DNA of 64,000 nucleotides from Alphaproteobacteria bacterium (GTDB taxonomy: Bacteria > Pseudomonadota > Alphaproteobacteria > SP197), in contig VGDP01000005.1 of NCBI GenBank assembly GCA_016869675.1, positions 1-64,000 of the forward strand, written 5' to 3'. Below, piece by piece: positions 2,558 through 34,890 of this stretch. How positions within the stretch are numbered: the stretch's first letter is position 1; the number at the start of each line of letters is the position of its first letter. The notes beneath the pieces were generated by a model. It did no database searches, had not been told where the DNA came from, and was given only the letters and a program-made list of their open reading frames with translations. The position numbers and the translations under genes were made by a program.

Positions 2558-2561
2558 TGCC

Positions 2562-3476
2562 TCAGGACGCCGGGTCGCGGCGCAGCTCGTGGCAGGCGCA
2601 GTGGACGCCGCCGCCGCCGAGCGTGAACATGTCGAACTCGGGCGCCTCGACGGTGAATCCCTCGGCGCGCAGGCGCTCGTTTAGCGCCTTGTTGTGCGCC
2701 ATGGAAATGATCGTCTCGTCGCCCAGGTAGACCACGTTGCCGCCCAGCTTGACGCATTCGCGGTAGGGCACGTCGATGAAGCGTACGCCGTGCCCCTTCA
2801 GCCAGTCGAGCGCGTAGAGTTCGAGCGCGTCGGTGCACACCAGCGCCACGTCCTTGCCGAGCATCACGACGACCGCGTCCATGTGCACGAACTGCGGCGG
2901 GATCGGCACGGTGATCGCCTCCCAGCCCTTGGCGCGCATCCAGCCGGCCACCTGCTCGGCGCCCTCCATGGTGGAACGGTCGCCGGCGTAGCCGAGCATG
3001 ACGACACTTGGGCGCACGATGACGAAGTCGCCGCCTTCGAAGAACCCGGCGCTGACCCAGTTCCAGATGGGGATGCCCGCCTTCAGATAGAAGCGCGCGG
3101 CGACGCCGAAATCGCGCTGGCGCGCCGGCGTCTGGATCGACGCGATCACCGCGCCCCACGGCGTCATGAACGAGGAGTCGCGCGCGAAGATCGAGTAGTG
3201 CAGGCCCTCATCGACCTCGATGAAGTGGGTGCAGATGCCACGCCGCTCGTAGATGTCGACCATCTGGCGGTGCTGGCTCATGGCCTTCTGCTTGTCGAAG
3301 TGCAGGCCCATCTTCTCCATGTTCGCGAAGGTGTGCCGCGAGATGGAGTTCATCGGCAGCCACTTGAAGTTGTCGGGCTTGGCCAGCAGCACGTCGCGCA
3401 GCGGCATGTAGGCGTTGTCCACGCCCCAGCCTTGCGGCAACGCCGCTGCCGTCTCCGCCGTCGTCACGCCCGCCAT
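2562..3476 (-). CDS. DDAH/arginine-deiminase-like amidinohydrolase
   Basis: A 304-residue member of the amidinotransferase/DDAH/arginine deiminase superfamily, which hydrolyses or transfers C-N groups of guanidino compounds. Visible active-site elements are the ARD motif (98-100), EGGD (147-150), the histidine of VHMD (198) and a C-terminal GGGGVHCACHE with the candidate nucleophilic Cys at 293 or 295. I chose ATG 3476 because GGAGG sits six bases upstream; an ATG at 3488 in the same frame lacks a good site. It ends four bases before the Rieske gene, so the three minus-strand genes to 762 probably form one operon. A damaged relative lies at 12087. The natural substrate is not determined. Confidence 0.82.
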   Translation of the reverse strand: MAGVTTAETAAALPQGWGVDNAYMPLRDVLLAKPDNFKWLPMNSISRHTFANMEKMGLHFDKQKAMSQHRQMVDIYERRGICTHFIEVDEGLHYSIFARDSSFMTPWGAVIASIQTPARQRDFGVAARFYLKAGIPIWNWVSAGFFEGGDFVIVRPSVVMLGYAGDRSTMEGAEQVAGWMRAKGWEAITVPIPPQFVHMDAVVVMLGKDVALVCTDALELYALDWLKGHGVRFIDVPYRECVKLGGNVVYLGDETIISMAHNKALNERLRAEGFTVEAPEFDMFTLGGGGVHCACHELRRDPAS

Positions 3477-3552
3477 GGCCGCCTCCATCGTTGCCGGGGA
3501 AGCGGACTCTACACCGGGCGGCCCTGCCGATTGAATACAGGAACGAGGCGGC

Positions 3553-3987: not shown

Positions 3988-4140
3988 GGTCACCTCCTCT
4001 GGCTTAGACCGGGGGGACCGCCCAGTACCCCGCGCCCGGGGTCGCCTCGCCTGCTTGGCGCGGAGATCGCGGCCGCCCGCCGGGATCGCCGTCTCAACTG
4101 TGCCTGTGGCGACCAGTGTGCCCCTTCGCTCACGTCTTGA

Positions 4141-4275
4141 CTAGCGATACTTGGCGCGCATCGCGGCTCTGTGCTCGGAGGCGCGCGACTGACCCAGTCC
4201 CTTGTTGGTTACCCATTCGTTGACTTCGGCGCGCGCATCGAAGGTCGCGGGTGACCCGTTCCGGCATTCCCTCGA
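4141..4275 (-). other. Short in-frame coding-like remnant after the sulfotransferase
   Basis: Immediately after the sulfotransferase stop, the same frame continues for 44 sense codons before a second TAG at 4141-4143. The text (ATFDARAEVNEWVTNKGLG, then EHRAAMRAKYR) looks protein-like rather than random. I do not recognise a family. It could be the tail of a vanished gene or a read-through extension. No start codon with a ribosome-binding site is evident. Confidence 0.3.
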
Positions 4276-4911
4276 CTACGTGCGCTCCGCGCCGAAGTGC
4301 TCCCAGAACTGCACCGTAGTGTTGTGGTGCGGGAACGGCTCGGCCGGCACAGGCACGCCTAGGAAGCGACACAGCGGCTCCCAGCCCTCGGCCACGTCGA
4401 ACACCAGCAGCCGCTCGCGCGGGATGGCGGCGCGCACGTCCTCGGTGCGCTTGCGGTACGCGGCCAGCGCCGCATCGCGCTCGGCATACAGGCCGTCGCA
4501 CGTCTGGCGGGCGATGATCGCGGCCGCCGCGTCCGACATGGCGCGGATGTGCGGCGGCAGGTCCATGCCGGGATAGCGGGTCAAGAACAACGCGATGGTC
4601 GCGGAGAAGCTCTTCCACCAGGACTCCTCAAGGCGCACGTTGTGCACGACCTTGGCGTCGGGGAACGCGGCGGCCAGTTCGCGCCAGACGTGGGCGCCCG
4701 GCCAGTCGACCTGCGCGCGATAGCCTGCGAACACCCGGTTCCAATCCACGGCCTCGCCGGCCGCGGCCGCCTGCCAGTGCGGCACCTGGTCGGGGTCGCA
4801 GAACACCTCCTCCATGTGATGGCGCGGCCCGAAGTCGAGCCGCTCCAGCGCGTTCTTGAGCGAGAGCGTCCCCGTGCGGCCGAAGCCGGACCCGATGACC
4901 GCGAGCGTCAT
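4276..4911 (-). CDS. Sulfotransferase-family protein
   Basis: A 211-residue protein that begins with GFGRTGTLSL (residues 9-18), the 5'-phosphosulfate-binding P-loop of PAPS-dependent sulfotransferases. It later shows VRLEESWWKS, resembling the 3'-phosphate-binding segment, and the family C-terminal pattern LLVFDVAEGWEPLCRFLGVPVP. Bacterial members of this subgroup are soluble and their acceptors are mostly unknown. The frame ends at TAG 4276-4278, and the same frame stays open for another 44 codons to 4141. That may be an old C-terminal extension or an unrelated remnant. The gene is transcribed alone or with the CaiD-like gene upstream. Confidence 0.78.
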   Translation of the reverse strand: MTLAVIGSGFGRTGTLSLKNALERLDFGPRHHMEEVFCDPDQVPHWQAAAAGEAVDWNRVFAGYRAQVDWPGAHVWRELAAAFPDAKVVHNVRLEESWWKSFSATIALFLTRYPGMDLPPHIRAMSDAAAAIIARQTCDGLYAERDAALAAYRKRTEDVRAAIPRERLLVFDVAEGWEPLCRFLGVPVPAEPFPHHNTTVQFWEHFGAERT

Positions 4912-4941
4912 GATCGTTCCCCCCAGGCGATGCCCGTGAAC

Positions 4942-5733
4942 CTACCGCCCCTTCCACACCGGCTTGCGCTTCTCGGCGAAGGCGCGTGGGCCTTCCCTAG
5001 CGTCCTCCGAGTCCCACATGGCCGCGTAGGCCGGGAGTTCGGCGCGCTTCTCGCGCATCAGGCGGATGCTGTCGTCGACGCTCAGCGGCTCGATTCGCTT
5101 GAGGATCTGCTTGATCGCCTTGACCGACAGCGGCGCCGAGGCGCAGATCGCCTGGGCGCGCTCGCGCGCCTTGGCCATCAGCTCCGCCGCCGGTACCACC
5201 GCCGCGAGCAGGCCCAACGCGAGCCCCTCGGCCGCCGACAGCCGGCGACCGGTCATCATCATCTCGACCGCCAGGTTGTAGGGTACGCGGCGCGGCAGGC
5301 GGTTGATGCCGCCGCCGTCGGGCAGGATGCCGACCTGCGCCTCGGGCAGGAAGAACTGGGCGTGCTCGGCGGCGACGATCAGGTCGGCGGCCAGCGCCAG
5401 CTCGAAGCCGCCGCCGGCGGCGTAGCCGTTGACCGCAGCGATCACCGGCTTGTCCAGCTCGTGGTAGTCGGGCAGGCCGGCGAAACCGTGCGGCCCGTAG
5501 TCTGTGGCGCCGGCGTCGTCCGAGGCCGCGGCCTTCAGGTCCCAGCCGGCCGAGAAGAACCGCTCGCCGCCGCCCGTGACGATCGCCACGCGCAAGCCGC
5601 AGTCCGTGTGCAGCCGCTCGAACGCGTCGCCCAGCGCCCGGCTGGTCGCCCCGTCGATGGCGTTGGCCGGCGGCCGGTCCAACGTGATCTCGAGCACGCC
5701 GCCGTCGCGCACGACCCTGACCGCCTCGCCCAT
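4942..5733 (-). CDS. caiD: CaiD-like carnitinyl-CoA dehydratase (crotonase fold)
   Basis: A 263-residue crotonase-superfamily enzyme that matches remembered E. coli CaiD along its length: GGVLEITLDRPPANAID, FFSAGWDLKAAA, NGYAAGGGFELALAAD and a C-terminal FAEKRKPVWKGR. Glu111 and Glu131 fall where crotonases place their catalytic acids. CaiD hydrates crotonobetainyl-CoA to carnitinyl-CoA, but close homologues in soil bacteria act on other enoyl-CoAs. No caiA, caiB or caiC partner is next to it, so the carnitine role is uncertain. The ATG has GGAGG just upstream. The nearest same-strand neighbour is the sulfotransferase, 30 bases downstream. Confidence 0.82.
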   Translation of the reverse strand: MGEAVRVVRDGGVLEITLDRPPANAIDGATSRALGDAFERLHTDCGLRVAIVTGGGERFFSAGWDLKAAASDDAGATDYGPHGFAGLPDYHELDKPVIAAVNGYAAGGGFELALAADLIVAAEHAQFFLPEAQVGILPDGGGINRLPRRVPYNLAVEMMMTGRRLSAAEGLALGLLAAVVPAAELMAKARERAQAICASAPLSVKAIKQILKRIEPLSVDDSIRLMREKRAELPAYAAMWDSEDAREGPRAFAEKRKPVWKGR

Positions 5734-5771
5734 GGATCCCCTCCTCTGTCGGTTCGGCCAAATCTACCCGG

Positions 5772-6987
5772 TCACGCGCCGAGCGCCACGTTGTAGAAGA
5801 TCGTCAGCAGCAGGCCGCGGTTGAGGAACCACAGGCGCAGCGCGCGGTCGAGCGTGCCGTCGTGATGGGCGCGCGCCTCGGCCGCGTTGGCCGGCGCGCG
5901 CGGCGATCACGCCTTCCCAGCCTTCGGCCAAGCGGCGCGCCTGGGCGTCCATGCGGGCGTAGGCCGCGTCGGTCAGCACGTGGTCGAGCGCCGCGCGCAT
6001 GGCGGCCAGGCCGAGCGCCGCGCCCGCCAGCGTGCCGCCGATGCCGGCGACGAAGCCTTCGACTCCGGCGCTCCAGGCGTCGAGCCGCGCGGCCACTTCG
6101 GTCGTGAAACCATCGACGGCGCCGGCCACGCCGCCGGCCACGGTCTTGCCCAGCGTGACGATGTCCGGGCCCAGGCCGTAGGCGCGCGTCCTGGCGCCTT
6201 GGCCGGCTCAGATCGTGTGGGTCTCGTCGATCACCAGCAGCGTGCCGGCGGCGCGGGTCAGGCGGCGCACGCCGTCGTGGAAGCCCGGACGCGGCAGCAC
6301 CATGCCGAAGTTGGTCAGGGCCGGTTCGGCCAGCACGCACGCCACGTCGCCGGGCGCCAAGGCGGCCTCGACCGCGGCGAGGTCGTTGAACGGCACCGCG
6401 CGCGTGATCAGGGACGGGTCCTGGCCCATGCCGATGGCGTCGGCTGCGGGCACGGTGGTGCCGGGCGCGTAGTCGATCAGGGTCTCGTCCAAACTGCCGT
6501 GGTAGCAGCCGTCGCACACGACGATGTGGCGGCGCCCGGTGGCGGCGCGCGCGAGCTTGATGGCGAAGCGGTTGGCGTCCGTCGCGGTCAGGCAGAACTG
6601 CCACAGCGGCAGGCCGCACCGCTCGGCCAGGCCGCGCGGGGCCGCCGCCGCGTCCTCGGTCGGCAGCATCGTGGTCAGCCCGCGCGGGGCCTGCGCGGCC
6701 AGCCGTTCGACCACGGCGGTTGGCACGTGGCGGAACAGGGCACCGGTGTCGCCCAGGCAGAAGTCCGCGTACGCGTGGCCGTCGGCGTCGGTGACGCGCG
6801 CACCTTCGGCCGCGACGGCGTAGATCGGGAACGGCCCGGCCTACTGGCGCATCCAGTGCAACGGCACGCCGCCGTGGACGTGCGCCCTCGCGGCCTCGAA
6901 CAGCGCGCGGCTGCGCGACCGGGCCGCGGCGAAGGCGCGCAATTCCGTCTCGATCAGCGATTCGATGCGGCGGTGGTCGATGGCCAT
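5772..6987 (-). pseudogene. Class III aminotransferase (GSA-aminomutase-like), broken
   Basis: One frame from ATG 6987 reads as a PLP-dependent class III aminotransferase of the glutamate-1-semialdehyde aminomutase type. It has GGVPLHWMRQ, DFCLGDTGALF, the GRRHIVVCDGCYHG block, DETHTI and the lysine-bearing DIVTLGKTVAGG. Three lesions break it: TAG at 6841-6843 in place of the usual Trp, TGA at 6208-6210 right after DETHTI, and a one-base insertion near 5895. The insertion moves the true C-terminus (LRLWFLNRGLLLTIFYNVALGA) into another frame ending at 5772. No full-length product can form unless these are sequencing errors. It is divergently placed from the BKACE gene. Confidence 0.82.
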
Positions 6988-7073
6988 GCGTGTCCCGTCA
7001 GCCCTTGATGCCGCTGCCTTGATCGCACGGCCCGGTGGTGCCAGGGTAGCCTGCTTCGCTCAGGGGGGGGTCC

Positions 7074-8012
7074 ATGGCCGCCAAGCGCGACAAGGTCATC
7101 ATCACGTGCGCCGTCACCGGCTCAATCCACACGCCGACCATGACGCCGCACCTGCCGATCACGCCCGACGAGATCGCGCGCGCCTCGATCGAGGCGGCCG
7201 AGGCCGGCGCCGCGATCATCCACCTGCACGCCCGCGATCCCGAGAACGGCCGCCCGACCCCCAGCCCCGACGTGTTCATGCAGTTCCTGCCGCGCATCAA
7301 GCAGGCGTCCGACGCGGTGCTGAACATCACCACCGGCGGTGGCCACGGCATGACGGTCGAGGAGCGCATGGCAGGCGCGCTGCACGCCAAGCCCGAGATG
7401 GCCACGTGCAACATGGGCTCGATTAACTTCGGGCTCTACCCCATGCTCGACCGCTACAAGACGTTCAAGCACGACTGGGAGCCCAAGCACCTGGAAGCCA
7501 GCCGCGACTTCGTCTTCTCGAACACGTTCAAGTCGATCGAGACCATGATGAAGCGGCTGGGCGAGGGCTGCGGCACACGCTTCGAGTTCGAGTGCTACGA
7601 TGTCGGGCACCTTTACAACCTAGCGCACTTCCTCGACCGCAAGATCGTGCGCCCGCCGCTGTTCGTGCAGACCATCTTCGGCATCCTAGGCGGCATCGGC
7701 GCCGACACCGAGAACGTCACCCACATGAAACGCATCGCCGACAAGCTGTTCGGCGACCAGTACTACTGGTCGGTGCTGGCGGCGGGGCGGCACCAGCTCC
7801 CGTTCGTGACCATGTCCGCAATCATGGGGGGCAACGTGCGCGTCGGGCTGGAGGATTCGATCTACCTCGGCAAGGGCCAGCTGGCACCCTCGAACGCGGC
7901 CCAGGTCGCGCGCATCCGCGCGATCCTCGAGAACCTGAGCCTCGAGGTCGCGACGCCTGGGGAAGCGCGCGCCATGCTCGACCTCAAGGGCGGCGACCAG
8001 GTCGCGTTCTGA
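7074..8012 (+). CDS. BKACE family beta-keto acid cleavage enzyme
   Basis: A 312-residue member of the BKACE (DUF849, 3-keto-5-aminohexanoate cleavage) family. These Zn-dependent enzymes condense a beta-keto acid with acetyl-CoA to give acetoacetate and a CoA ester. The zinc ligands are visible as His50 and His52 in HLHARDP and Glu260 in RVGLEDS. TTGGGHGMTVEERM (86-99) is the conserved substrate-pocket segment. Length and architecture are normal. Members act on keto acids from lysine, carnitine (dehydrocarnitine) and other catabolism, so a link with the CaiD-like gene 1.3 kb away is plausible but unproven. The gene is apparently monocistronic and is followed by hairpin repeats. Confidence 0.92.
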   Translation: MAAKRDKVIITCAVTGSIHTPTMTPHLPITPDEIARASIEAAEAGAAIIHLHARDPENGRPTPSPDVFMQFLPRIKQASDAVLNITTGGGHGMTVEERMAGALHAKPEMATCNMGSINFGLYPMLDRYKTFKHDWEPKHLEASRDFVFSNTFKSIETMMKRLGEGCGTRFEFECYDVGHLYNLAHFLDRKIVRPPLFVQTIFGILGGIGADTENVTHMKRIADKLFGDQYYWSVLAAGRHQLPFVTMSAIMGGNVRVGLEDSIYLGKGQLAPSNAAQVARIRAILENLSLEVATPGEARAMLDLKGGDQVAF

Positions 8013-8033
8013 CACGATCGCGTACCGTGCCGA

Positions 8034-8145
8034 TACCCCCCCCTCCCTACCCTCCCCCGCAAGGGGGGAGGGGCGCGGTCGCCGGCCGTGCATCTCCCTC
8101 TCCCTCGATGGGGGCGGGAGGGGTGGGGGTGGGGCCGCGTCGTGG
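8034..8145. repeat. GC-rich palindromic intergenic repeats
   Basis: The 142-base gap after the BKACE gene is built of C-rich and G-rich tracts. CCCTCCCCC at 8050-8058 pairs perfectly with GGGGGAGGG at 8064-8072 around a five-base loop. A second imperfect C-rich/G-rich pair lies at about 8094-8140. There is no T tract, so a classical intrinsic terminator is not supported, although the hairpin could protect the 3' end of the BKACE transcript. A similar C-rich block occurs at 51181-51214. Confidence 0.6.
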
Positions 8146-8154
8146 TCTGGCGTC

Positions 8155-10031
<1,877 letters not shown>

Positions 10032-11982: not shown

Positions 11983-12090
11983 ATGCCGCTGATCTCCGAG
12001 GAAGAGTACCGCTACAAAAAGCTCATCAAGATCTTCGCCTCGGTGCCCGAACCGCCGTTCGAGCACCCGGCCGAGCAGGAGGCGACGTGA
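11983..12090 (+). CDS. Small 35-residue ORF
   Basis: The ATG at 11983 follows TAGGAGGTTCC, a near-perfect ribosome-binding site, and encodes 35 residues starting MPLISEEEYRYKKLIKIF and ending HPAEQEAT. It is charged, with no membrane segment or metal motif. The strong translation signal, the eight-base gap after the dehydratase stop and the overlap with the next gene at 12087 argue that it is expressed as part of that operon. I do not recognise a family. It may assist or couple the downstream amidinohydrolase. Confidence 0.55.
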   Translation: MPLISEEEYRYKKLIKIFASVPEPPFEHPAEQEAT

Positions 12091-13173
12091 GGCGGGCGCT
12101 GGGGCTGCCTCACCGACGTGGGCCGCCTGCGCGCAGTCCTGGTGCACCGGCCGGGACCCGAGGGGAACGTGGTCGATCCGGCCAGGGTGATGCCCGGCAT
12201 CGGCGCGTTCGGCGGCCCGGACAAGGGCTGGTACTGGCGCGGTCCCACGCCACCCGACCTGCCGGCCATGCAAGCGACGCACGACCGCCTGGTCGAGACG
12301 CTGCGCGCTGAGCAGGTGCGCGTCGAGGAGGTCGGTGACGTTCCGGCCGGCTGCATGAAGGCGTGCTACACGCGCGACGTGGCGATCGCGGTGGACGGCG
12401 GCGCCATCGTCTGCCGCATGGGCTCGCGCGTGCGCCGCGGCGAGGAGCTGGCGGCCAGCCGCGCGCTGGCGCGCCTCAGCGTGCCGATCCTGCGCACCAT
12501 CCACGGCACCGGCATCGTCGAGGGCGGCAGCTTCGCCTGAATCGATGGGACGACGGCGGTGATCGGCCTTTCGGCGCGGGTCAACGAGGAAGGCGCGCGC
12601 CAGGTCGAGGGGGTGCTGCGCGTCCAGGGCGTCAAGTTGCTGCGCGTGCACCTGACCGGCTACCGGCTGCACATCGACGGCCTGTTCCTGATGGTTGGCC
12701 GCGACCTGGCGCTGATCAACCCCACCCTGCTGCCGTTCACGTTCCTCGAGGCGCTGAAGGCGCGCGGCATCCGCACCATCGAGGTCGACCCCGAGGACCA
12801 ACCGTTCACGGTCAACGGCCTGGCCGTGCGTCCAGGGCGCGTGATCCTGAGCGAGACCAGCCCGCGCACGCTCGACCGGCTCGACAAGGCGGGCGTCGAG
12901 GTGGTGCCCCTGCCCTACGAGGCCATGTACCGGGGCGGCGGCGGCATCCACTGCTCCACGTCGTTCCTGGCGCGCGATCCGGCGTGCAGGGCGAACCTCT
13001 CTCCGATCTCTCGCGTGTCATGCCCGGGCCGTCCTGAGGAGCGGACCCTGAGTGCGTCGAAGGGCCCGCGTCGCGAAGGGCGGAACCGGGCATCCAGGGC
13101 CGTGGGGCCCGTTGGTGGCCCCTGGACCCCCGGTTCGCCGCGCGCGGCGCGCGGGGGTGACAGGCCGGGTTGA
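12087..13173 (+). pseudogene. Second amidinohydrolase (DDAH/ADI superfamily), broken
   Basis: The same superfamily as 2562-3476: a GRLRAVLVHRPGP start, ACYTRDVAIAV, GTGIVEGGSF, RVHLTGYRLHIDGLF and GGGGIHCSTSF with the expected nucleophilic Cys. Two lesions are visible. A likely one-base insertion in the G run near 12094 separates the GTG at 12087 from the coding frame, with GTG 12118 an internal alternative. A TGA at 12538-12540 replaces the Trp expected after GGSFA. The natural end after FLARDPA (about 12982) has also lost its stop, and the frame runs into a repeat to 13173. A functional product needs correction of at least the TGA. Confidence 0.8.
13016..13165. repeat. Composite palindromic intergenic repeat, copy B
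   Basis: This gap holds nested palindromes. ATGCCCGG at 13020-13027 is the exact inverse of CCGGGCAT at 13086-13093. Then TGGACCCCCGGTTCGCCG (from 13123) is followed by GCGGGGGTGACA ending at 13163, matching copy A at 10366-10406. It explains why the amidinohydrolase frame stays open past its natural end. The remaining bases to 13239 hold no coding signal that I can see. Confidence 0.7.
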
Positions 13174-19018: not shown

Positions 19019-19975
19019 TCACGCGAGATGGCACGCGGCCCAATGGCTCGGCGTTGCCCCCACGGGCCGCAGGGCGGGAACCTCGCCACGGCAGCGCTCG
19101 ACCGCGCGGGGGCAGCGCGGATGGAACGGACAGCCCGGCGGTGGACGCTCGGGGTTCGGGATATCGCCGCCGATAGGGGGGCGGGCACGCACGCGCTCCG
19201 GGTCCGGGTCGGGGATCGCGGCCAGCAGTCCCTCGGTGTAGGGGTGCGCCGGCGCGCGGAACAGCGCCTCGGCGTCGGCCAACTCCACGACGCGCCCCAG
19301 GTACATCACGGCGACGCGGTCGCTCATGTACTCGACCACGGCCAGGTCGTGGGAGATGAACACGTAGGACAGGCCGAGGCGCGCCTTCAGCTCGACCAGC
19401 AGGTTGAGGATCTGCGACTGCACCGAGACGTCGAGGGCGGAGACCGGTTCATCGGCCACCACGAGGCGCGGTTCCAGCGCGATGGCGCGGGCGATGCCGA
19501 TGCGCTGGCGCTGGCCGCCGGAGAATTCGTGCGGGTAGCGGCGCGCCGCGTCCGCGTCCAGCCCGACGAGGCCGAGCAGCGCCGCGACGCGCGCCCGCCG
19601 CGATGCCGCGTCGCCGATCCGGTGGATGGCCAGGGGCTCGGCCACGATGGCGCCGATGGTCATGCGCGGATCGAGCGAGGCGTAGGGGTCCTGGAAGACG
19701 AGCTGCATGTGCCGGCGCGCCGCGCGCAGGCGCGGTTCGTCCAGCGCCAGCAGATCGACCCCGTCGAAGCGCAGCCGCCCCGCGCTCGGCTCGATCAGCC
19801 GTAGCATGAGGCGCGCGAGCGTGGACTTGCCGCAGCCGGATTCGCCGACCACGCCCAGCGTCTCGCCGGGCATGACGGTCAGCGTCACACCGTCGACCGC
19901 CTTGACCACGCCGCGTCCGTCGCGCGCGCGGAAGGTGCGCGCGATGCCCTCCAGCTCCAAGATCGGCGTGGTCAT
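19019..19975 (-). CDS. Peptide ABC transporter ATP-binding protein (DppF/OppF type)
   Basis: A 318-residue ATPase with Walker [11 protein letters not shown]-loop [12 protein letters not shown], the signature [14 protein letters not shown], Walker [13 protein letters not shown] and the switch histidine ISHDLAVV. The C-terminal oligopeptide-transporter extension has clustered cysteines ([18 protein letters not shown]), which in this family can bind an Fe-S cluster. It pairs with the DppD-like ATPase upstream, which it overlaps by four bases. Together they drive import through the DppB/DppC-like permeases of the same operon. Confidence 0.93.
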
Positions 19976-20955
19976 GGCACCGGGTTCCAGCAGGCGTGGG
20001 CGTGGCCGTCGCCCATGAGCGGCGGGCGTTCGACCCGGCAACGTTCGGCGACGCGCGCGCAACGCTCGGCGAAGGCGCAGCCGGCGGCGCGCCGGCCGGG
20101 CGCCGGCACCATGCCGGGGATCGCGGGCAGCGGCCGGCCGCGCGGCGCGCGCCGGGGTGAGGACGCGAGCAGGCCGTGGGTGTAGGGGTGGCGCGGCCGG
20201 CGGAACAGGTCGGCCGCGCGCGCGCGCTCGACCACGCGGCCGGCGTACATGACGACGACCTCGTCGCACACCGCCGCGACCACGCCGAGATCGTGGGTGA
20301 TTAGCAGCACCGCCATGCCGAGCGCGCGCTGCACGTCGCGCAGGAGGTCGAGGATCTGCGCCTGGATCGTGACGTCGAGCGCCGTGGTCGGTTCGTCGGC
20401 GATCAGCAACCGCGGCCGGCAGGCGAGCGCCATGGCGATCATGACACGCTGGCGCAGGCCGCCCGAGAGCTGGTGCGGGAACTGGTCGACGCGGCGTTCC
20501 GGCGCGCCGACGCCCACGGCGCGCAGACCCTCGACCACCGCCGAGCGCGCCTCGGCCCGGCCCATGGCGCGGTGCAGGCGCAGCACCTCGGCGATCTGCG
20601 CGCCGACCGTCATGGTCGGGTTCAGGCTGGTCATCGGTTCCTGGAAGATCATGCCGACCCGGTTGCCCCGCACGGCGCGCAAGGCGCGCGCGTCGAGCGC
20701 CAGCAGGTCCTGACCGTCGAGCCGGATGGCGCCGGCCTCGATGCGCGCCGGCGGCATGGGCAGCAGGCGCAGGATCGACATGGCGGTGACGGTCTTGCCG
20801 CAACCGGACTCGCCGACCAGGCCGACCGTGCGCCCCTCGGCGATGGTCAGACCGACGTCCTCGACCACGGGCACGCGCCCGGCCTCGCCGGCGAAGCTGA
20901 CCGTCAGCCCCGCGATGTCGAGCAGGGGCGGCGGCACGCCCGCCGCCAGGGTCAT
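19972..20955 (-). CDS. Peptide ABC transporter ATP-binding protein (DppD/OppD type)
   Basis: A 327-residue ATPase with Walker [12 protein letters not shown]-loop [11 protein letters not shown], the signature [14 protein letters not shown], Walker [13 protein letters not shown] and ITHDLGVV. The C-terminal extension holds the family cysteines ([15 protein letters not shown]). It overlaps the formamidase stop and the DppF ATG by four bases each, so the three genes are translationally coupled. The first residues ([17 protein letters not shown]) show no alternative start. Confidence 0.93.
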
Positions 20956-21896
20956 GCGAAGACGATCTTGGGGAAGTAGAACGACACCACCCAGTTCGGG
21001 ATGTCGACGATCTCGCTGATGCGCAGGTCGCCCGCGACGCTGCACAGCATGTACGCATCGGCGGCGCCCAGCCCGTGTTCGCGGCCCAGGAGGTCGATCA
21101 TGCCCTTGACCGCGTCGCGCGACGCGGCCATCAGGTCGGGCCCGATGCCGGTGGTGGCGTGGTAGCCCTTGCCGTCCAGGTGGCGCGCGACCGGCCCCTC
21201 GGTCTCGAAGCGCGGGAAGCGCAGGCCGGTGCTCTTGACCAGCCCCAAGCGCAGCACGACCTTCATCTGGCTCTCGATCGCCGTGCCGCACACCTCGCCA
21301 TCGCCCTGGGCCGCGTGGGTGTCGCCGATCGAGAACAGGGCACCCTTCACCTCGACCGGCAGGTAGAGCGTGGTGCCCGCCGCCATGTCGCGGATGTCCA
21401 TGTTGCCGCCGACGCGGCGCGGCGGCACGACGCTGTGCAGGCCCGCCTCGGCGAGCGCCAGGCCGATGGTGCCGGCGAACGGCTTGAGCGGCACCTTGCC
21501 GCCGGGGCCGTAGGCCGCCGACAACAGCGAGGCGCGGTCGTAGCTCCAGATGTGCAGCGCCGGATCGGGGAACTGGTCGGCCAGCAGGCCGAAGCCGGGG
21601 ATGCACGCGGTCCAGCCCCAGCCGGACGCGCCGAACTCGAGGATCTCGACCTTGAGCGCGTCGCCCGGCTCGGCGCCGTCCACCAGGATCGGCCCCGAGG
21701 TCGGGTTGACCTTGCCGAAGTCGAGCTTGGCGATGTCGGCGATCGTCGAGGACGGCGTCAGCTGGCCGCCCGAGGAATCCTGGGTGTCGATCTCGACCGT
21801 CGCCCCCGGCGCCACGGTGAGCACCGGGGGAAGGCGGTTGTCCCAGCCGAAATGGTGCTGGTGGCGGTGGATGGTGTGGCGCGGGCTATTGGGCAT
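20952..21896 (-). CDS. fmdA: Acetamidase/formamidase family protein
   Basis: A 314-residue member of the FmdA/AmdA acetamidase/formamidase family, Zn-dependent enzymes that release ammonia from short amides. It starts [22 protein letters not shown] and has [32 protein letters not shown] and the C-terminal [17 protein letters not shown] typical of the group. It is embedded inside the Dpp operon, overlapping the substrate-binding-protein stop by 11 bases and the DppD start by four. Hydrolysis of an amide brought in by this transporter is therefore likely. The specific amide is unknown. Confidence 0.9.
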
Positions 21897-23508
21897 CGGT
21901 CGCGAACACCACGTCGTAGTGCACCGGGATGTGCACCGGATCGACGAAGATTGCGTCCGAATCGCCCGCGATGCGCGTCGAGTGCATGGTGAACCGCTCC
22001 TCGTTGAAGATCGGGATCCAGGGAGCATCCGCCAGCACCTTGGAGAACACCCGGGTCCATGCGTCCAGCCGCGCCTGGGCCTGGGCCGGATCGGTCATGG
22101 CGTCGGCCTGGCCGGCGAGCGCGTCAACGTCCTGGTTGCAGTACCACGACCAGTTCCAGCCGCCCGGCGCCGCCGCGCCGCAGCCCAGGATCGCCCAGTA
22201 GAAGTTGGACGGATCGGGGAAGTCGGCGATCCACGCCATGCCGCCCGACCAGATCATGGGCGCGGCGCCTTCGGTGCCGCCGGCCTCGATCACCACGGAG
22301 GGATCGAGCGCCTTGATCTCGACGGTCACCCCGATGGCGGCCAGATCCTGCTGGATCGCCTGGGCGATGCGCGGGTTGGGATCAGTGTTCATGGCGTAGA
22401 GCTCGGTGGAGAAGCCGTCCGCCAGGCCCGCCTCGGCCAGCAGCGCCTTGGCCTTCTCGGGGTCGTAGGCGTAGCCGGTCTCGGCCGTGTTGTAGGCCGG
22501 CATCGCCGGCGGCAGGGCCTGGTTCGCGGGCACCGCGCGGCCGTTGATGATCTGGACGATGCGATCCTTGTTGATCGCGTGGTTGAGCGCTTGGCGCACC
22601 GCGACGTTGTCGAGCGGCGCGACGCGCGTGTTCAGCGTGACGTAGCCGGTGTGGAGCTGGCCGCCCTGGACCACCTGCTTGGCCAGATCGGCGTTGCCCA
22701 TCACGTCGACGAAGCGCGCCGGCGGGATGCCGTCGCCCAAGAGGTCGACCTCGCCGCGCTCGAGCCGCAGCAGCGCGACCGAGGGGTCCTGGCCGATCTC
22801 GAAGACGACCTCGTCGAGCTTCGGCCGGTCGGCGATGTAGTAGTCGGCGTTCCTGGCGAATACGACACGCTGGCCGAGCGTCCATTCGGCCAGCTTGAAC
22901 GCGCCGGTGCCCACCGGGTTCTTGCCGAAATCGGCGCCGTGCTCCTCGACCGCTTCCTTGGCGACGACGAAGGCGAAGTTGAGCGCCAGCTTGTGCAGGA
23001 ACGGCGCGTCGGGCCGGTTGAGCTCGATGGTCAGCGTGTGGGGATCGACCACCGTGACGCCCGCCAGCGTCGTCGAGGCGCCCGAGGCGACGTCCTCGTA
23101 GCCCTTGATGGTGTCGTAGTAGCTGGCGCCCGGGCTCTGGGTCGCCGGGTTGATCGTGCGCTCCAGGCTGTACTTGACGTCCTCGGCCGTCATTTCGCGG
23201 CCGTTGTGGAAAGTGACCCCCTGGCGCAGCTTGAACGTGTAGGTCAGGCCGTCGGCGGAGATCTCGTAGCTCTCGGCCAGGTCGGGCACAATCTCGGTGG
23301 TGCCGGGCGCGTAGTCGATCAGGCCGTCGAACAGGCTCTTGATCATCGACCAGTTCTGCCAGTCGTAGCCGACCGCCGGGTCGAGCGTGGCGACGTCGGA
23401 CTGGTACGTGACGATCATCGAGCCGGCGGCGCGCACGTCCGTTCCGAACGCGCCGATCAGGGCCGCCCCGGCCAGCAGCGCAGCGCGCAGCAATGTCCGT
23501 GTTGTCAT
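21886..23508 (-). CDS. Peptide/nickel-type ABC transporter substrate-binding protein (family 5)
   Basis: A 540-residue periplasmic binding protein. The Sec signal peptide reads LLRAALLAGAALIGAFGTDVRA, followed by mature GSMIVTYQSDVATLDPAVGY. Family-5 blocks are visible: PDLAESYEISADGLTYTFKL, GVTFHNGREMTAEDVKYSLER and NPVGTGAFKL. The ATG at 23508 is chosen over an upstream in-frame GTG because AGGGGAGG precedes it and the signal peptide then starts properly. It delivers the ligand to the DppB/C-like permeases. The ligand could be a peptide, an opine or an amide-containing compound. Confidence 0.93.
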   Translation of the reverse strand: MTTRTLLRAALLAGAALIGAFGTDVRAAGSMIVTYQSDVATLDPAVGYDWQNWSMIKSLFDGLIDYAPGTTEIVPDLAESYEISADGLTYTFKLRQGVTFHNGREMTAEDVKYSLERTINPATQSPGASYYDTIKGYEDVASGASTTLAGVTVVDPHTLTIELNRPDAPFLHKLALNFAFVVAKEAVEEHGADFGKNPVGTGAFKLAEWTLGQRVVFARNADYYIADRPKLDEVVFEIGQDPSVALLRLERGEVDLLGDGIPPARFVDVMGNADLAKQVVQGGQLHTGYVTLNTRVAPLDNVAVRQALNHAINKDRIVQIINGRAVPANQALPPAMPAYNTAETGYAYDPEKAKALLAEAGLADGFSTELYAMNTDPNPRIAQAIQQDLAAIGVTVEIKALDPSVVIEAGGTEGAAPMIWSGGMAWIADFPDPSNFYWAILGCGAAAPGGWNWSWYCNQDVDALAGQADAMTDPAQAQARLDAWTRVFSKVLADAPWIPIFNEERFTMHSTRIAGDSDAIFVDPVHIPVHYDVVFATDAQ

Positions 23509-23561
23509 GGTGTCGAACCTCCCCTTGTGAATGCGTAGCGGTGCCATGCGTTGCCGCGACT

Positions 23562-24482
23562 CTAGTTGAGGCGGATACGCGGATCAATCAGCGCCGTCGC
23601 CAGGTCGGCGATCACGTTTCCGAGAACGATCGCGGTGGCGGCGGTCAGCGTCACGCCCATCATGATCGGGATATCCACGCGCTGGATCGCCTGCCAGGCG
23701 AGCTGGCCGATGCCCGGCCAGCCAAACACCGATTCGACGACCACCGCGCCGCTCATGAACAAGCCGATGTCGATGCCGATCATGGCGACAATCGGCAGGA
23801 TCGCGTTGCGCAGGCCGTGGCGCAGCACCACGCCCGTCTCGGCGACGCCCTTGGCGCGCGCGGTGCGGATGTAGTCCTGGCCGAGCACGCCGACCATGCT
23901 GGCCCGCGTCATGCGCGAATAGAACCCGCCGCCCGCGAGCCCGAGGGTGAGCGCCGGCAGCACCAGATGCTCGAGCCCGCCATAGCCGCTCAGCGGGAAC
24001 AACCCGAGCAGGTAGGCGAACACATAGAGCAGCAGGAGCCCGACGACGAACTGCGGCGCCGAGACACCGACGAACGAGAGTGTCATGACCGCGCGGTCGG
24101 CGAAGCGGCCGCGCCGGGTCGCGGCGAAGATGCCGGCGGGCAGACCGATGGCGAGTTCGCAGAAGATCGCGCCGGCCAGCAGCAGCAGCGTCGCCGGCAG
24201 GCGGCTGCCGATCAGTTCGACCACCTCGGTCTTCTGGGCGTAGGAGCGGCCAAGATCGCCCTGCGCCAGGCGCCCCAGGTAGCGCGCGTACTGCACCGGG
24301 ATCGGCTGGTCGAGCCCGAGCTGGTGGCGGATCGAGGCGACCGTCTCGACGGTCGCGGCGCGCCCGGCGATCATGCGCGCGGGATCCGCCGGGATCAAGA
24401 ACGCGAGCGCGAAGGTGACGACCGTGACGCCAAGCAGGATGACCACGGCCTGGGCCAGGCGGCGGGCGAGAAACCGGATCAC
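23562..24482 (-). CDS. ABC transporter permease (DppB type)
   Basis: A 306-residue inner-membrane permease with about six hydrophobic helices. The start is FLARRLAQAVVILLGVTVVTF and the conserved permease-ATPase coupling segment reads DYIRTARAKGVAETGVVLRHGLRNAILP. It starts at GTG 24482, overlapping the DppC-like gene by four bases, and ends 53 bases before the binding-protein gene. It forms the channel with the DppC-like partner. Confidence 0.92.
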   Translation of the reverse strand: MIRFLARRLAQAVVILLGVTVVTFALAFLIPADPARMIAGRAATVETVASIRHQLGLDQPIPVQYARYLGRLAQGDLGRSYAQKTEVVELIGSRLPATLLLLAGAIFCELAIGLPAGIFAATRRGRFADRAVMTLSFVGVSAPQFVVGLLLLYVFAYLLGLFPLSGYGGLEHLVLPALTLGLAGGGFYSRMTRASMVGVLGQDYIRTARAKGVAETGVVLRHGLRNAILPIVAMIGIDIGLFMSGAVVVESVFGWPGIGQLAWQAIQRVDIPIMMGVTLTAATAIVLGNVIADLATALIDPRIRLN

Positions 24483-25330
24483 CGCCGGCCCCTCTGGGTT
24501 GGGTCGAGCGCGTCGTTGAGCGCCTCGCCGACCAGGTTGAAGGCGAGCGCGGCCATGATGATCGCGATGCCGGGGAAGAACACCAGCCACGGCGCGGTCA
24601 GGAAGTAGGACTGGCCCTCGAAGATGATGCCGCCCCACGACGGGGTCGGCGGCTGCACACCAACGCCCAGGAACGACAGCGTCGCCTCGAGCAGCACGGT
24701 GGTGGCGATGCCGAGCGTACTCCACACCAGGATGGTCGGCACCAGATGGGGCAGCACGTGGCGCAGCACGATGCGCGCCCGCCCGGCGCCCAGTGCGCGC
24801 GCCGCCTCGATGAACTCGCGCTCGGCCAGCGCGGTGGTCTGGGTGTAGACGACGCGGCAGATCTGCACCCAGTTCACGAGCGCGATGACCAGGGCGACGA
24901 TCCACAGAGAGGGGCGCAGGATCGCGGCCAGCGCGATGGCCAGCAGCAGCGCCGGGAACGCCATCATCAGGTCCGTGAAGCGCATGATGGCGCCGCCCAC
25001 CACGCCGCGCGCGAGGCCCGCGATCATGCCGAGCAGCGTGCCGACGATGACGGCGGCGCCGTTGGCCACGACGCCGACGGTGAGCGAGGCACGCGCGCCC
25101 CAGATCAGGCGCGAGAGCAGGTCGCGCCCGAGCAGATCGGTGCCCAACGGGAAGCGTTCGCTGGGCGGCAGCGGCGCGCCTTCGATGGTCAGGCCGTCGA
25201 AGAACTGCTCGGCCGGGTCGTAGGGCGCGATCATGGGCGCGAGCAGCGCCGCAGCGACCACCAGCGCGACCGTAACGGCGCCTGCGAATGCGAGCGGATC
25301 GCGGACGAAGCCCTTGAACCCGTGCGCCAT
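24479..25330 (-). CDS. ABC transporter permease (DppC type)
   Basis: A 283-residue permease. It has an N-terminal hydrophobic segment, the DppC-typical LGTDLLGRDLLSRLIWGARASL, the EAA-like loop EFIEAARALGAGRARIVLRHVLPHLVP, and a C-terminal ALAFNLVGEALNDALDPTQRGRR. It starts four bases after the ureohydrolase-like stop and overlaps DppB by four bases. This places the enzyme and transporter in one transcript. Confidence 0.92.
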   Translation of the reverse strand: MAHGFKGFVRDPLAFAGAVTVALVVAAALLAPMIAPYDPAEQFFDGLTIEGAPLPPSERFPLGTDLLGRDLLSRLIWGARASLTVGVVANGAAVIVGTLLGMIAGLARGVVGGAIMRFTDLMMAFPALLLAIALAAILRPSLWIVALVIALVNWVQICRVVYTQTTALAEREFIEAARALGAGRARIVLRHVLPHLVPTILVWSTLGIATTVLLEATLSFLGVGVQPPTPSWGGIIFEGQSYFLTAPWLVFFPGIAIIMAALAFNLVGEALNDALDPTQRGRR

Positions 25331-25334
25331 GACG

Positions 25335-26294
25335 TCAGCGCGGCGCTAGGCCGAAGCGGACGCAGAGCAGCCACAGCACCTCGTAGACGACGGTGGCGGC
25401 GAGCCAGGCGGTCAGGCCCTGGACGTCGTAATCCGGCGAGGTGGTGTTGACGTCGCAGCCGACGATGTCGAGCCCGGCGAGCGCGCGCACGAACGCCAAG
25501 CCCTCGGCGGCGCTGAAGCCGCCCCACGCCGGGGTGTAGACGCCGGGCGCGACTGAGGGATCGAACACGTCCATGTCGAAGCAGAGGTAGACCGGGCGTT
25601 CCCCCATGAGGGCGCGCACGCGCGCGGCGAACGCCTCGGCGCCCAGGGCGCGGGCGGTGTCCATGGTGACGACGCCGTAGCCCAGGCCCTCGGTGTAGGC
25701 GAACACGCCGGGCACGTAAGTCAGGCCGCGCATGCCCACGTGCAGCGAGCGGCGCGCGTCGACCCAGCCCTGGTCGGCCGCGTGGGCGAAGGTGGTCGCC
25801 GGGTCGACCTGGATGCGGTTGCCGCCGGCCGGATCGGGGTAGGCGTCGGTGTGAGAATCGAAGTGCAGCACGCACAGGCCCGGGTGGCGCGCGGCCACCG
25901 CCTTGATCACCGGCAGGCTGGTCAGCCCGTCGCCGCCGAGGCCGAGCGGCACCGCGCCCGCGCCGACGACGCGCGCGATCGCCCGGGCACCGCGCTCAAT
26001 GGCGTCGTCCACGTCGCCGGGCCGCAGCGGCACGTCGCCGCAATCGACCAGGCCGAGTGCCGCCACCGGATCGAACGGTTGCGCCAGCTCGGGCCGGTAG
26101 CGCCGCACGTTGTCGGTCGACATGGCGCGGATCGCCGCCGGCCCGTTGCGCGCGCCGACGCGGCGCGGGTGACGGCCGGTGTCGAACGGCAGGCCGACGA
26201 TGGCGGCGCGCGCGCCCGCCAGGTCCCAGGTCTGCGGCACGCCCAGATACGTGCCGACCGTGCGGAACAGCTCGGGATCGTGGATCAAGGTCAT
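25335..26294 (-). CDS. Ureohydrolase-fold (agmatinase/arginase family) protein with altered active site
   Basis: A 319-residue protein with the arginase/agmatinase fold: GLPFDTGRHPR, LVDCGDVPLRPGD, HFDSHTD (146-150), CFDMDVFDPS (metal Asp240 and Asp242) and a C-terminal DYDVQGLTAWLAATVVYE. Two normally conserved positions differ. The GGDH metal-binding His is Gly123 (GGDG). The Glu of the DxxExSP motif, which holds the guanidinium group in arginase, is Thr284 (DVNTTSP). The remaining Asp/His ligands could hold one metal. Its substrate is therefore probably not a normal guanidino compound. It is the first gene of the Dpp/formamidase operon. Confidence 0.85.
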   Translation of the reverse strand: MTLIHDPELFRTVGTYLGVPQTWDLAGARAAIVGLPFDTGRHPRRVGARNGPAAIRAMSTDNVRRYRPELAQPFDPVAALGLVDCGDVPLRPGDVDDAIERGARAIARVVGAGAVPLGLGGDGLTSLPVIKAVAARHPGLCVLHFDSHTDAYPDPAGGNRIQVDPATTFAHAADQGWVDARRSLHVGMRGLTYVPGVFAYTEGLGYGVVTMDTARALGAEAFAARVRALMGERPVYLCFDMDVFDPSVAPGVYTPAWGGFSAAEGLAFVRALAGLDIVGCDVNTTSPDYDVQGLTAWLAATVVYEVLWLLCVRFGLAPR

Positions 26295-26370: not shown

Positions 26371-27375
26371 GTGCGACCGGTTCCCGTGGGTCTCGTGTCC
26401 CGGCGCGTGTTCGACGCCCAGCCCGAGGACACCGCCGCCGCCAAGGGCAACAAGGGCGTCGACGTGGTCTCGACGGTCAGCCTGATCCTGATGATCGAGG
26501 AGACCTGCGGCGGCCTGCTGCAGCCCTACTACGAAACCGACGACGCGACCGTGGGCGCGCGCGTGGCGGTCGACCACGTCGGCCCGGCGCATATCGGGCG
26601 GCCGATCGACGTGACCGCGCGTCTGGACGCCGTCGAGGGTCGGCGCCACCGCTTCGCCGTGACGATCGAGCAGGACGGGCGGCCGGTGATGACCGGCGAG
26701 CACGCGCGCGTCGCCGTCTCGCTCGCGCGTTTCCTGGGCCGCGCCGCGCCGACGCCGGCGGCGGGGCCCGAGGTCGAGTTCTGGTTCGACGTGCACAGCC
26801 CGTGGTGCTACCTGGCGTCGCACCGCATCGGGGGCATCGTGCGCGACCACGGCGGCCGGGTGCGCTGGCGCCCGGTGCACCTGGCCAACCTGATCGAGGC
26901 GATCAAGGGCCGCCAGCCGTTGACGGAGAACGCGGCGTTCGTGCGCTGGTACCGCCAGGACATCCTGGACCAGGCCGAGCTGCTGGGCCTGCCCTACCGC
27001 GAGCATCCGGCCTACCCACTGCGCCCGTCGCGCGCGCTGCGCGCGGCGCTGTGGGCGGCGGACCAGGGCGCCGCCGAGCCGTTCGTGCAAGCGCTCATGC
27101 GCGCCTATTGGGCCGAGGCGCGGGACATCGCGGACGTGGCGGTGCTGGCGCACCTGGCGGAGGCTGTCGGGCTGCTGGGCGGCCGCGTCGCGACCGTCGT
27201 CGAGGACCCGGCCATCAAGGCGGCGATCGAGGCCAATGGCCGCGAGGCCATCGAGCGCGGCCTGTTTGGCGTGCCCACGGCGTTGTTCGGCGGCAAGATC
27301 TTCTTCGGCAACGACCATCTTGACCTGCTCGACCGCCACCTGGGACGCTGGCGCGTGGACCACGGCCAGGGCTGA
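26371..27375 (+). CDS. Fusion of FlK-like hotdog thioesterase and DsbA/HCCA-isomerase-like domain
   Basis: A 334-residue, two-domain protein. Residues 1 to about 122 resemble fluoroacetyl-CoA thioesterase-type hotdog proteins: VSLILMIEETCGGLL with Glu43, ATVGARVAVDHVGP with His69, and GEHARVAV. After a short Pro/Ala linker, residues 135-334 match the 2-hydroxychromene-2-carboxylate isomerase/DsbA thioredoxin fold: EFWFDVHSPWCYLASHRI with Ser143, WRPVHLANLIEAIKG and FGVPTALFGGKIFFGNDHLDLLDRHL. These domains usually occur as separate proteins acting on CoA esters and aromatic catabolites. The start at GTG 26371 has GAGGAG upstream. It abuts the PhyH gene, so a shared pathway is likely. Confidence 0.82.
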   Translation: MRPVPVGLVSRRVFDAQPEDTAAAKGNKGVDVVSTVSLILMIEETCGGLLQPYYETDDATVGARVAVDHVGPAHIGRPIDVTARLDAVEGRRHRFAVTIEQDGRPVMTGEHARVAVSLARFLGRAAPTPAAGPEVEFWFDVHSPWCYLASHRIGGIVRDHGGRVRWRPVHLANLIEAIKGRQPLTENAAFVRWYRQDILDQAELLGLPYREHPAYPLRPSRALRAALWAADQGAAEPFVQALMRAYWAEARDIADVAVLAHLAEAVGLLGGRVATVVEDPAIKAAIEANGREAIERGLFGVPTALFGGKIFFGNDHLDLLDRHLGRWRVDHGQG

Positions 27376-27380
27376 GCACG

Positions 27381-28184
27381 ATGGAAGCGATGCCGGACAA
27401 GGCGGCGATCGCCGATTTCCAGCGCGACGGCGCCATCGTGCTGAGCGGCGCCTTCACGGACTGGGTCGAGCGCCTGCGGGAAGGCGTCGCGCGCAACATG
27501 GCCGCGCCCAGCGCTGACGTGCGCCTCTACCGCAACGCGGACGGCTCGGGCCTGTTCTTCGGCGACTACTGTAACTGGGACCGCATCCCGGAGTACCGCG
27601 CGTTCGTCTTCGAATCGGACGCCGGGCGCATCGCCGCGGCGCTCATGCAATCGCGCACCGCGCGCCTGTTCCACGAGCATGTGCTGGTCAAGGAGCCGGG
27701 CACCGACGTACCCACGCCCTGGCATCACGACCAGCCCTACTACAACGTGGACGGCAACCAGAACGTCAGCCTGTGGCTGGCGCTCGATCCGGTGCCGGCC
27801 GAGGTCGCCGTCGAGTTCGTCGCGGGCAGCCACTACTGGGGCCGCTGGTTCCGACCGGAGCGGTTTAACCGCACCGCGCTCTACGACGACGACCGGATGT
27901 CGCCGGTGCCCGACATCGACGGGCACCGCGCCAACTTCTCGATCCTGAGCTGGGCGCTGGAGCCGGGCGACTGCGTGGCGTTCCATTTCCTGACCCTGCA
28001 CGGCGCGCCCGGCACCAAGGGCGCCAAGCACCGGCGGCGCGGCTTCTCGACCCGCTGGATCGGCGACGACGCGCGCTTCGCCGTGCGCAAGGGCCCGACC
28101 TCGCCGCCGTTCCGCGGCGTCACCCTGAAGCCGGGCCAGCCCATGGACGCGCCCGAGTTCCCGCTGGTGTTCGGCGGCTCATGA
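27381..28184 (+). CDS. Phytanoyl-CoA dioxygenase family protein
   Basis: A 267-residue Fe(II)/2-oxoglutarate oxygenase. The iron triad is visible as His115-x-Asp117 in PTPWHHDQPYYN and distal His207 in FHFLTLHGAPG, with an Arg-rich 2OG-binding stretch (KHRRRGFSTRW) after it. The family hydroxylates carbon next to a carboxyl, CoA ester or amine; here the substrate is unknown. It lies five bases after the fusion gene on the same strand. After its stop the sequence turns into a deacetylase remnant. Confidence 0.9.
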   Translation: MEAMPDKAAIADFQRDGAIVLSGAFTDWVERLREGVARNMAAPSADVRLYRNADGSGLFFGDYCNWDRIPEYRAFVFESDAGRIAAALMQSRTARLFHEHVLVKEPGTDVPTPWHHDQPYYNVDGNQNVSLWLALDPVPAEVAVEFVAGSHYWGRWFRPERFNRTALYDDDRMSPVPDIDGHRANFSILSWALEPGDCVAFHFLTLHGAPGTKGAKHRRRGFSTRWIGDDARFAVRKGPTSPPFRGVTLKPGQPMDAPEFPLVFGGS

Positions 28185-33789: not shown

Positions 33790-34890
33790 CTACTTCACGG
33801 CCTGAGCCAGCGCCGCCGCCTTGGCGATGACGGCCTCCTGGTGCGGGTACATATGGTGCCCGCCGGCAACGTCGATGAACACGGCGAAGGGATCGCCGAT
33901 GTTGGTCTTGCGGCCCGACAGCTCTTCCATGACCGCCAGCCCGCAGTAAGGCACATAGGCCGCCGAGTAGCCGCCTTCGTGGGTCAGCAGCAGGCGGCCG
34001 CCGCACAGCTCGGCCGCCAGGTCGATCATGATGCGCGCGAGTTTCCGGTAGGTGGTGCTGGTCACCATCATGCGCCCGAGCGGATCGTAGATGCCGCCGT
34101 CGAAGCCCGAGGCGATGACGATCAACTCGGGCTTGAAGCGGCGCAGCGCCGGGGCAACGACGCGCTCGAAGGTGGCGATGTAGGGATCGCGGCCCGAGCC
34201 GGGCGGCAGCGGCACGTTGATGTTGTAGCCTTGGCCCTTGCCGGCGCCGGTCTCGTGCAGGTGCCCGGAATCCGCCGGATACCAGTTGTCCTGGTGGATC
34301 GAGATGGTCAGCACGCTGGGGTCTTCGTAGAACATCTTTTGCGTGCCGTTGCCGTGGTGCACGTCCCAGTCGACCACGGCGACGCGGCCGAGCTTGTGGC
34401 GCACCTGGGCGTGGCGTACCGCGAGCGCCGCGTTGCCGAAGATGCAGAAGCCGCGGCCGCGGTCGGGTTCGGCGTGATGCCCCGGCGGGCGCACCAGCGC
34501 GTAGGCGTTGGCGACCTCGCCGCCGACCACGGCGTCGAGCGCGGCCATGGTGCCGCCGGCGGCCAGCAGCGCGATCTCGTAGCTGCCCGGGCCGAACGGC
34601 GTTGCCTCGCCGGCGTCGCCGCCGTGGGCGTCGCTCATGGTCTTGATGCGCTTGACGTAGTCGGCCGTGTGCACGCGCTGGACTTCGTCCACGGCGGCGG
34701 GGCGCGCCTTGATGGCCACCAGATGGTCGAGCAGCCCGGCGACATCCAAAAGGTTGCGGAAGCGACGCTTGGTGTCGGAATTCTCGGCGTTCAGGTCGGG
34801 CTCGACGGTCAGGCCGGCGGGGTGCCACAGCGCCGCACGCCCGGTGTCGTGCCACATGTAGAGTTCGTGGAACAGGAATCCGCTGGCCAC
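33790..34890 (-). CDS. Histone deacetylase/acetylpolyamine amidohydrolase family protein
   Basis: A 366-residue class II-type zinc deacetylase. The active site is complete: RPPGHHAE (His138, His139), DWDVHHGNGTQ (zinc ligands Asp176 and His178), SGFDGG (third zinc ligand Asp264) and EGGY with catalytic Tyr308. Bacterial members remove acetyl groups from polyamines, acetylated lysine or other amides in the cytoplasm. It faces the livM remnant tail to tail, with seven bases between the two stops. It is the intact relative of the fragment at 28206-28531, so the locus once had two copies or a duplicated segment. Confidence 0.92.
   Translation of the reverse strand: MASGFLFHELYMWHDTGRAALWHPAGLTVEPDLNAENSDTKRRFRNLLDVAGLLDHLVAIKARPAAVDEVQRVHTADYVKRIKTMSDAHGGDAGEATPFGPGSYEIALLAAGGTMAALDAVVGGEVANAYALVRPPGHHAEPDRGRGFCIFGNAALAVRHAQVRHKLGRVAVVDWDVHHGNGTQKMFYEDPSVLTISIHQDNWYPADSGHLHETGAGKGQGYNINVPLPPGSGRDPYIATFERVVAPALRRFKPELIVIASGFDGGIYDPLGRMMVTSTTYRKLARIMIDLAAELCGGRLLLTHEGGYSAAYVPYCGLAVMEELSGRKTNIGDPFAVFIDVAGGHHMYPHQEAVIAKAAALAQAVK

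Follow-up and report, generated by a model that had tools for sequence, protein, structure and literature searches.

What can a ureohydrolase-fold protein do when residues central to catalysis in its superfamily have been replaced? The question is raised by a gene in a 64,000-nucleotide stretch of an alphaproteobacterial contig (VGDP01000005.1), referred to here as the window. The gene and the motifs of its product are as follows.

26294..25335, minus strand: ureohydrolase-fold gene, ATG start, 319 amino acids
Motifs of the product: GGDG (residues 120-123), DSHTD (146-150), DMD (240-242), APGV (249-252) and DVNT (281-284)

We assigned residue equivalences by alignment of the 319-residue protein to four solved enzymes. 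Gly123 lies within GLGGDG, FDMD covers residues 239-242, and Thr284, within DVNTTSP, occupies the position of the agmatinase Glu. The protein scored 227.9 bits for the Pfam Arginase family (PF00491; cut-off 22), which identifies an arginase-fold domain. Five ligands of the six-ligand signature (GGDH, DxHxD, DxD) are present, and the His of GGDH is Gly. Membership of the PF00491 superfamily by fold stands, and the catalytic signature is incomplete. None of the curated cut-offs for equivalogs or subfamilies was reached, namely those for agmatinase (TIGR01230, 152.9 versus 174.3 bits), NF002564 (213.1 versus 302), formimidoylglutamase (hutG, TIGR01227, 102.9 versus 229.15 bits) and arginase (TIGR01229, 53.6 versus 227.6 bits). 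An AlphaFold2 model built from a 52-sequence alignment had a mean pLDDT of 92.5 and a pTM of 0.92. In a fold search with this model (E 2.9e-29), the best PDB matches were GpuA, proclavaminate amidinohydrolase (PAH), E. coli agmatinase and GbuA.

To place the protein, a PMSF tree of 80 rows was calculated. It compared SpeB, PAH, GbuA and GpuA and left out guanidinase, formiminoglutamase and arginase; guanidinase and HutG were set against the clade by papers and PDB match lists only. A branch supported at 100/100 separated all 55 clade rows from SpeB, PAH, GbuA and GpuA, and this split was present in all 200 bootstrap trees examined. The stem of the clade is about 1.07 changes per column long. 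The nearest relative of the window protein (L009) is 69% identical to it. Members are mainly from Alphaproteobacteria, with a few from Betaproteobacteria: Bordetella hinzii (L064), Caballeronia (L154) and metagenome-assembled genomes labelled Betaproteobacteria or Burkholderiales (L032, L061). The motif pattern of the clade, correctly spaced, was found in 24 of 385 alphaproteobacterial genomes (about 6%), after two wrongly spaced chance matches (G247, G070) had been removed from 26 raw ones. Members on plasmids are annotated by NCBI only as 'arginase family protein', and the open-access literature searched was not found to describe any ureohydrolase subfamily with GGDG and DVNT. Judged by tree and motifs, the clade is an uncharacterised, previously unnamed, monophyletic subfamily of the ureohydrolases (PF00491).

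The active-site columns were examined in 96 clade rows, 89 of them distinct. These rows came from a scan of one genome collection, a motif search across the class and three plasmid records. Gly at the metal-A His position (Gly123) was present in 86 of the 89 distinct rows; two others are gapped there, and the one that differs is a frame-disrupted fragment. Thr284, at the position of the guanidinium-binding Glu, and Val252, which turns APGT into APGV, were found in 89/89. The catalytic proton-shuttle His of the HGT motif (His163 of the E. coli enzyme) is S, P, A, T, N, G or V in all covered rows and never His. Of the metal ligands, D240 and D242 never vary across the 89 distinct rows, nor do D146, H148 and D150 in the 87 rows that extend over those positions; the mean column identity of the clade, the backdrop for these fixed columns, is 62%. 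By alignment, three key catalytic residues (metal-A His, shuttle His and guanidinium Glu) are thus swapped throughout the clade, and the Thr of APGT is a fourth departure. The remaining metal shell is, on the same pattern, under strong constraint. Since the other five ligands are invariant, the metal site is probably retained. The earlier note, written from the window alone, had given positions 25335-26294, an arginase/agmatinase scaffold with DxHxD and DxD kept, and the changes of GGDH to GGDG and of the DxxExSP Glu to Thr; all of this was borne out, the gene lying on the minus strand. Alignment of the clade showed Gly and Thr to be clade-defining and brought out two further changes, those of the shuttle His and the APGT Thr. 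Chance and sequencing or assembly error were rejected, as the changes are common to 89 distinct sequences. His185, nearly clade-specific (84 of 87 rows), was considered as a compensating metal ligand and judged unlikely to be one; by alignment it is on a strand face far from the active-site end.

Mutants of E. coli agmatinase indicate what such changes might cost. H126N retained about 50% of activity and H151N lost all of it (PMC7313459), while H163F left 3-5% and E274A 1-2% (PMC8125230). Because H126N keeps about half, loss of the metal-A His alone would be mild. With the Glu and the shuttle His both gone, almost no agmatinase activity is predicted to remain, an effect not expected from the Gly change by itself. 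The view that the Gly and Thr changes together argue against ordinary agmatinase activity is supported when the loss of the shuttle His is counted with them; its metal-His part is by itself indecisive.

Is the protein still an amidinohydrolase? In this main rival explanation, a guanidino compound would be converted to urea in a redesigned pocket, in which other residues replace the Glu and the His. Its best structural matches are a guanidinopropionase, proclavaminate amidinohydrolase, agmatinase and guanidinobutyrase, the H126N enzyme remains about half active, and active enzymes without the shuttle His are known: metformin hydrolase MetCa is active with Asn and the peptide arginase OspR with Ile at that position. 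However, the Glu, the shuttle His and the metal-A His are jointly gone clade-wide, and the E274A replacement alone leaves 1-2% of activity. We consider continued amidinohydrolysis somewhat unlikely.

Metformin hydrolase (MetCa/MetCb, also MfmA/MfmB) shares the arginase fold and offers a second precedent. In MetCb-type pseudoenzymes, between three and five of the six metal ligands are gone, and with several catalytic residues missing the clade protein could likewise be a catalytically dead structural or regulatory subunit. MetCa keeps six ligands and MetCb has lost five of six, whereas the clade has lost one. As its five other ligands are invariant and no second ureohydrolase was present in the fetched neighbourhood at 95 of 96 clade loci, this reading is less likely, and we regard it as improbable. 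Pairing with an adjacent catalytic ureohydrolase in the manner of MetCa and MetCb was rejected; the sole exception is a Bosea locus (L153), where an agmatinase-type gene with GGDH and VEV lies about 6.6 kb away.

In the window the ureohydrolase gene is the first of a seven-gene operon and is followed by dppC, dppB, dppA, fmdA, dppD and dppF. Neighbouring genes mostly overlap, by 4-11 nt.

24479..25330, minus strand: DppC/OppC-type permease; start 4 nt past the ureohydrolase stop
23562..24482, minus strand: DppB/NikB-type permease; GTG start, 4 nt overlap with dppC
21886..23508, minus strand: DppA-type substrate-binding protein (SBP_bac_5); alternative upstream start at 23547
20952..21896, minus strand: acetamidase/formamidase family protein (PF03069), short form; 141 bits versus the NCBIfam FmdA equivalog cut-off of 500
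19972..20955, minus strand: DppD-type ATPase, assigned by sequence and position
19019..19975, minus strand: DppF-type ATPase

The tight packing of the seven genes supports co-transcription, and the gene order and short junctions confirm what had been noted before, that the ureohydrolase gene heads an operon with a Dpp-type importer and an acetamidase/formamidase. HutG, a member of the same superfamily, releases formamide. A HutG-like enzyme in this operon would remove a formimidoyl or acetimidoyl group, and the formamide or acetamide would be hydrolysed by the amidase encoded in the same tight operon by the fmdA-family gene. The ureohydrolase score is, however, far under the hutG cut-off, the fmdA product is itself under the formamidase cut-off, and the linkage is unseen in relatives, so that we hold this route to be very unlikely. 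Homologues of fmdA that are 62-75% identical adjoin neither Dpp genes nor the clade gene in relatives of the same family, and no adjacency to these Dpp genes was found among the fetched neighbourhoods of other clade members. The formamidase linkage was dropped as a functional clue, as the arrangement is not conserved. The suggestion in the earlier note of an amide or ureide substrate had leaned on the Dpp and formamidase genes; that argument is weak, with the linkage not conserved and other importers in relatives. The substrate itself is still plausible through the neutralised pocket and the amide/ureide-type and ADI/DDAH-like neighbours described below.

One divergent gene lies on the other side of the ureohydrolase gene.

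26450..27375, plus strand: FlK thioesterase-like and DSBA-like fusion protein; start approximate; divergent from the ureohydrolase gene, likewise in L009 and L139

The fusion gene, kept beside the clade member of L009, is followed in the window by a PhyH-family gene (26450-28184, plus strand, for both). PhyH homologues also occur near the clade members of L067, L121 and L122.

The neighbourhoods of relatives vary in their importers. In Reyranella, Methylobacterium and others, an amino-acid ABC importer and an M20 (ArgE/DapE-type) hydrolase precede the clade gene, and LysR and M28 genes are divergent in loci of this type. In Oceanibaculum, Thalassobaculum-like genomes, BAL199 and L069, the order is a Pot-type importer, an M20 or DUF1028 gene, an ADI/DDAH-like gene and then the clade gene. 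The clade locus on a Bosea plasmid contains an AtzE-family amidohydrolase, a creatininase, a flavin monooxygenase pair and an ABC importer, and the Caballeronia plasmid gene is near an amino-acid importer. Further neighbours are M20, amidase and N-formylglutamate amidohydrolase genes. The recurrence of unrelated importer types with varied amide/ureide-type hydrolases points to a role of the clade in the catabolism of imported nitrogen compounds. In the Bosea locus L153 (2254-16574), the clade gene comes straight after a flavin reductase gene, and an LLM monooxygenase, a polysaccharide deacetylase and a normal agmatinase-type gene are also present; the region is a candidate nitrogen-compound degradation cluster.

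We searched the 385 alphaproteobacterial genomes with the ADI/DDAH-like protein of L069 (E up to 1e-60), and the statistics refer to that sample. The partner was found in 12 genomes, and 10 of the 12 also carry the clade gene, itself present in 24/385 (hypergeometric p 7e-12). When collapsed to families, the only correction made for kinship, the co-occurrence was 6/7 (p 3e-7). The ureohydrolases of the two partner-bearing genomes that lack a clade gene (G163 and G380) are all more distant (at most 39% identity). In G182 the two genes are unlinked, about 405 kb apart on one chromosome, so the association is more than adjacency. At the same threshold, 14 of the 24 clade-bearing genomes have no close ADI/DDAH homologue. 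Aligned to DDAH, the partner retains Glu, His and Cys, which are the catalytic residues of DDAH. This link is a stronger clue than the Dpp/formamidase operon. It would fit a guanidino substrate of the clade enzyme just as well, and known members of the partner's superfamily mostly use guanidino compounds, which favours the amidinohydrolase explanation.

Two ADI/DDAH-like genes are present in the window.

11983..12990, plus strand: ADI/DDAH-like gene of the partner type; interrupted by two in-frame TGA codons at sites that are Trp in relatives
2562..3488, minus strand: second ADI/DDAH-like gene, intact (PF02274); close homologue about 3 kb from the L009 clade member

The TGA codons of the first gene, which lies downstream of a UxaA-type dehydratase gene, are at EEAT*GGRWGC and GGSFA*IDGT (asterisks). 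This gene may be decayed; sequence error or read-through are alternatives. The second belongs to a block at 1535-10031 that encodes a Rieske oxygenase, the ADI/DDAH-like protein, a sulfotransferase-like protein, an enoyl-CoA hydratase, a beta-keto acid cleavage enzyme, an EamA protein and a proline iminopeptidase-like protein. In L009 and L139, several genes of the block recur on the downstream side of the clade member, within about 8 kb of it.

Taken with the conserved ligands, these neighbourhoods lead us to favour, tentatively and at somewhat less than an even chance, a metallohydrolase of an uncharacterised subfamily that would act on a non-guanidinium nitrogen compound (a ureide, an amide or similar) after its import. 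The protein would still bind metal, with firm binding in site B and weak binding, if any, in site A, and would activate water for hydrolysis of a C-N bond. With the carboxylate gone from the cation-binding side of the pocket, the substrate would more probably be a neutral nitrogen compound of ureido, amide or imide type than a guanidinium ion. The enzyme would work in the cytoplasm following ABC import, often in one pathway with the ADI/DDAH-like enzyme, which could turn a guanidino group into a neutral ureido group for the clade enzyme to attack. The full two-step route for guanidino nutrients, in which a clade enzyme without the site-A His hydrolyses the neutral ureido or amide product of the ADI/DDAH-like enzyme in place of direct amidinohydrolysis, is in this specific form unlikely. 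If active, the metallohydrolase would show that a reduced metal-A site is enough for the arginase fold to act on non-guanidinium substrates. A branch found in about 6% of the sampled alphaproteobacterial genomes departs, in every member, at four positions from the catalytic signature of a metallohydrolase fold that ranks among the best studied, and the pathway can be tested directly through the co-occurring ADI/DDAH-like enzyme.

We compared the clade with the closest known systems. Pseudomonas aeruginosa GpuA and GbuA (3nip, 3nio) resemble the clade protein in sequence (33-36% identity), structure (TM-score about 0.83-0.88) and five of six ligands. They keep GGDH, the HGT His, APGT and the VEVSP Glu, where the clade has Gly, S/P/A/T/N/G/V, Val and Thr, and they fall in a separate clade. 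E. coli agmatinase SpeB (7lol) shares the fold and DxHTDxY with the window protein, including the equivalent of Tyr155 (Tyr152), but the equivalents of His126, His163 and Glu274 are gone. Guanidinase GdmH of Synechocystis and Nitrospira (7esr, 9fek) has the same superfamily fold at about 24-26% identity. Six of its residues coordinate Ni/Mn, and Glu344 (N. inopinata numbering) is proposed as an active-site residue (PMC11410670). By comparison with the paper and PDB matches, the clade has lost both the ligand His and the Glu. Histone deacetylases, which have the arginase/deacetylase fold and hold a single metal, would broadly resemble the clade in their loss of metal-A coordination. Deacetylases have also lost metal-A aspartates, whereas D150 and D240 are invariant in the clade. 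The window also encodes a predicted histone-deacetylase/acetylpolyamine-amidohydrolase-like protein (33790-34890, minus strand; assigned by sequence motifs) near branched-chain-type ABC transporter genes.

Other odd ureohydrolases were observed as well. Genome G000 has eight ureohydrolase homologues altogether. One of them (C45:16578-17501, L006) forms with L074 and L078 another odd branch, in which GGDH is kept and the guanidinium Glu is replaced by Cys (DIVCLIP). Two further paralogues (C3:78725-79606, L007, and C2:154335-154934, L008) have GGDD, a change of the metal-A His to Asp, and retain the Glu.
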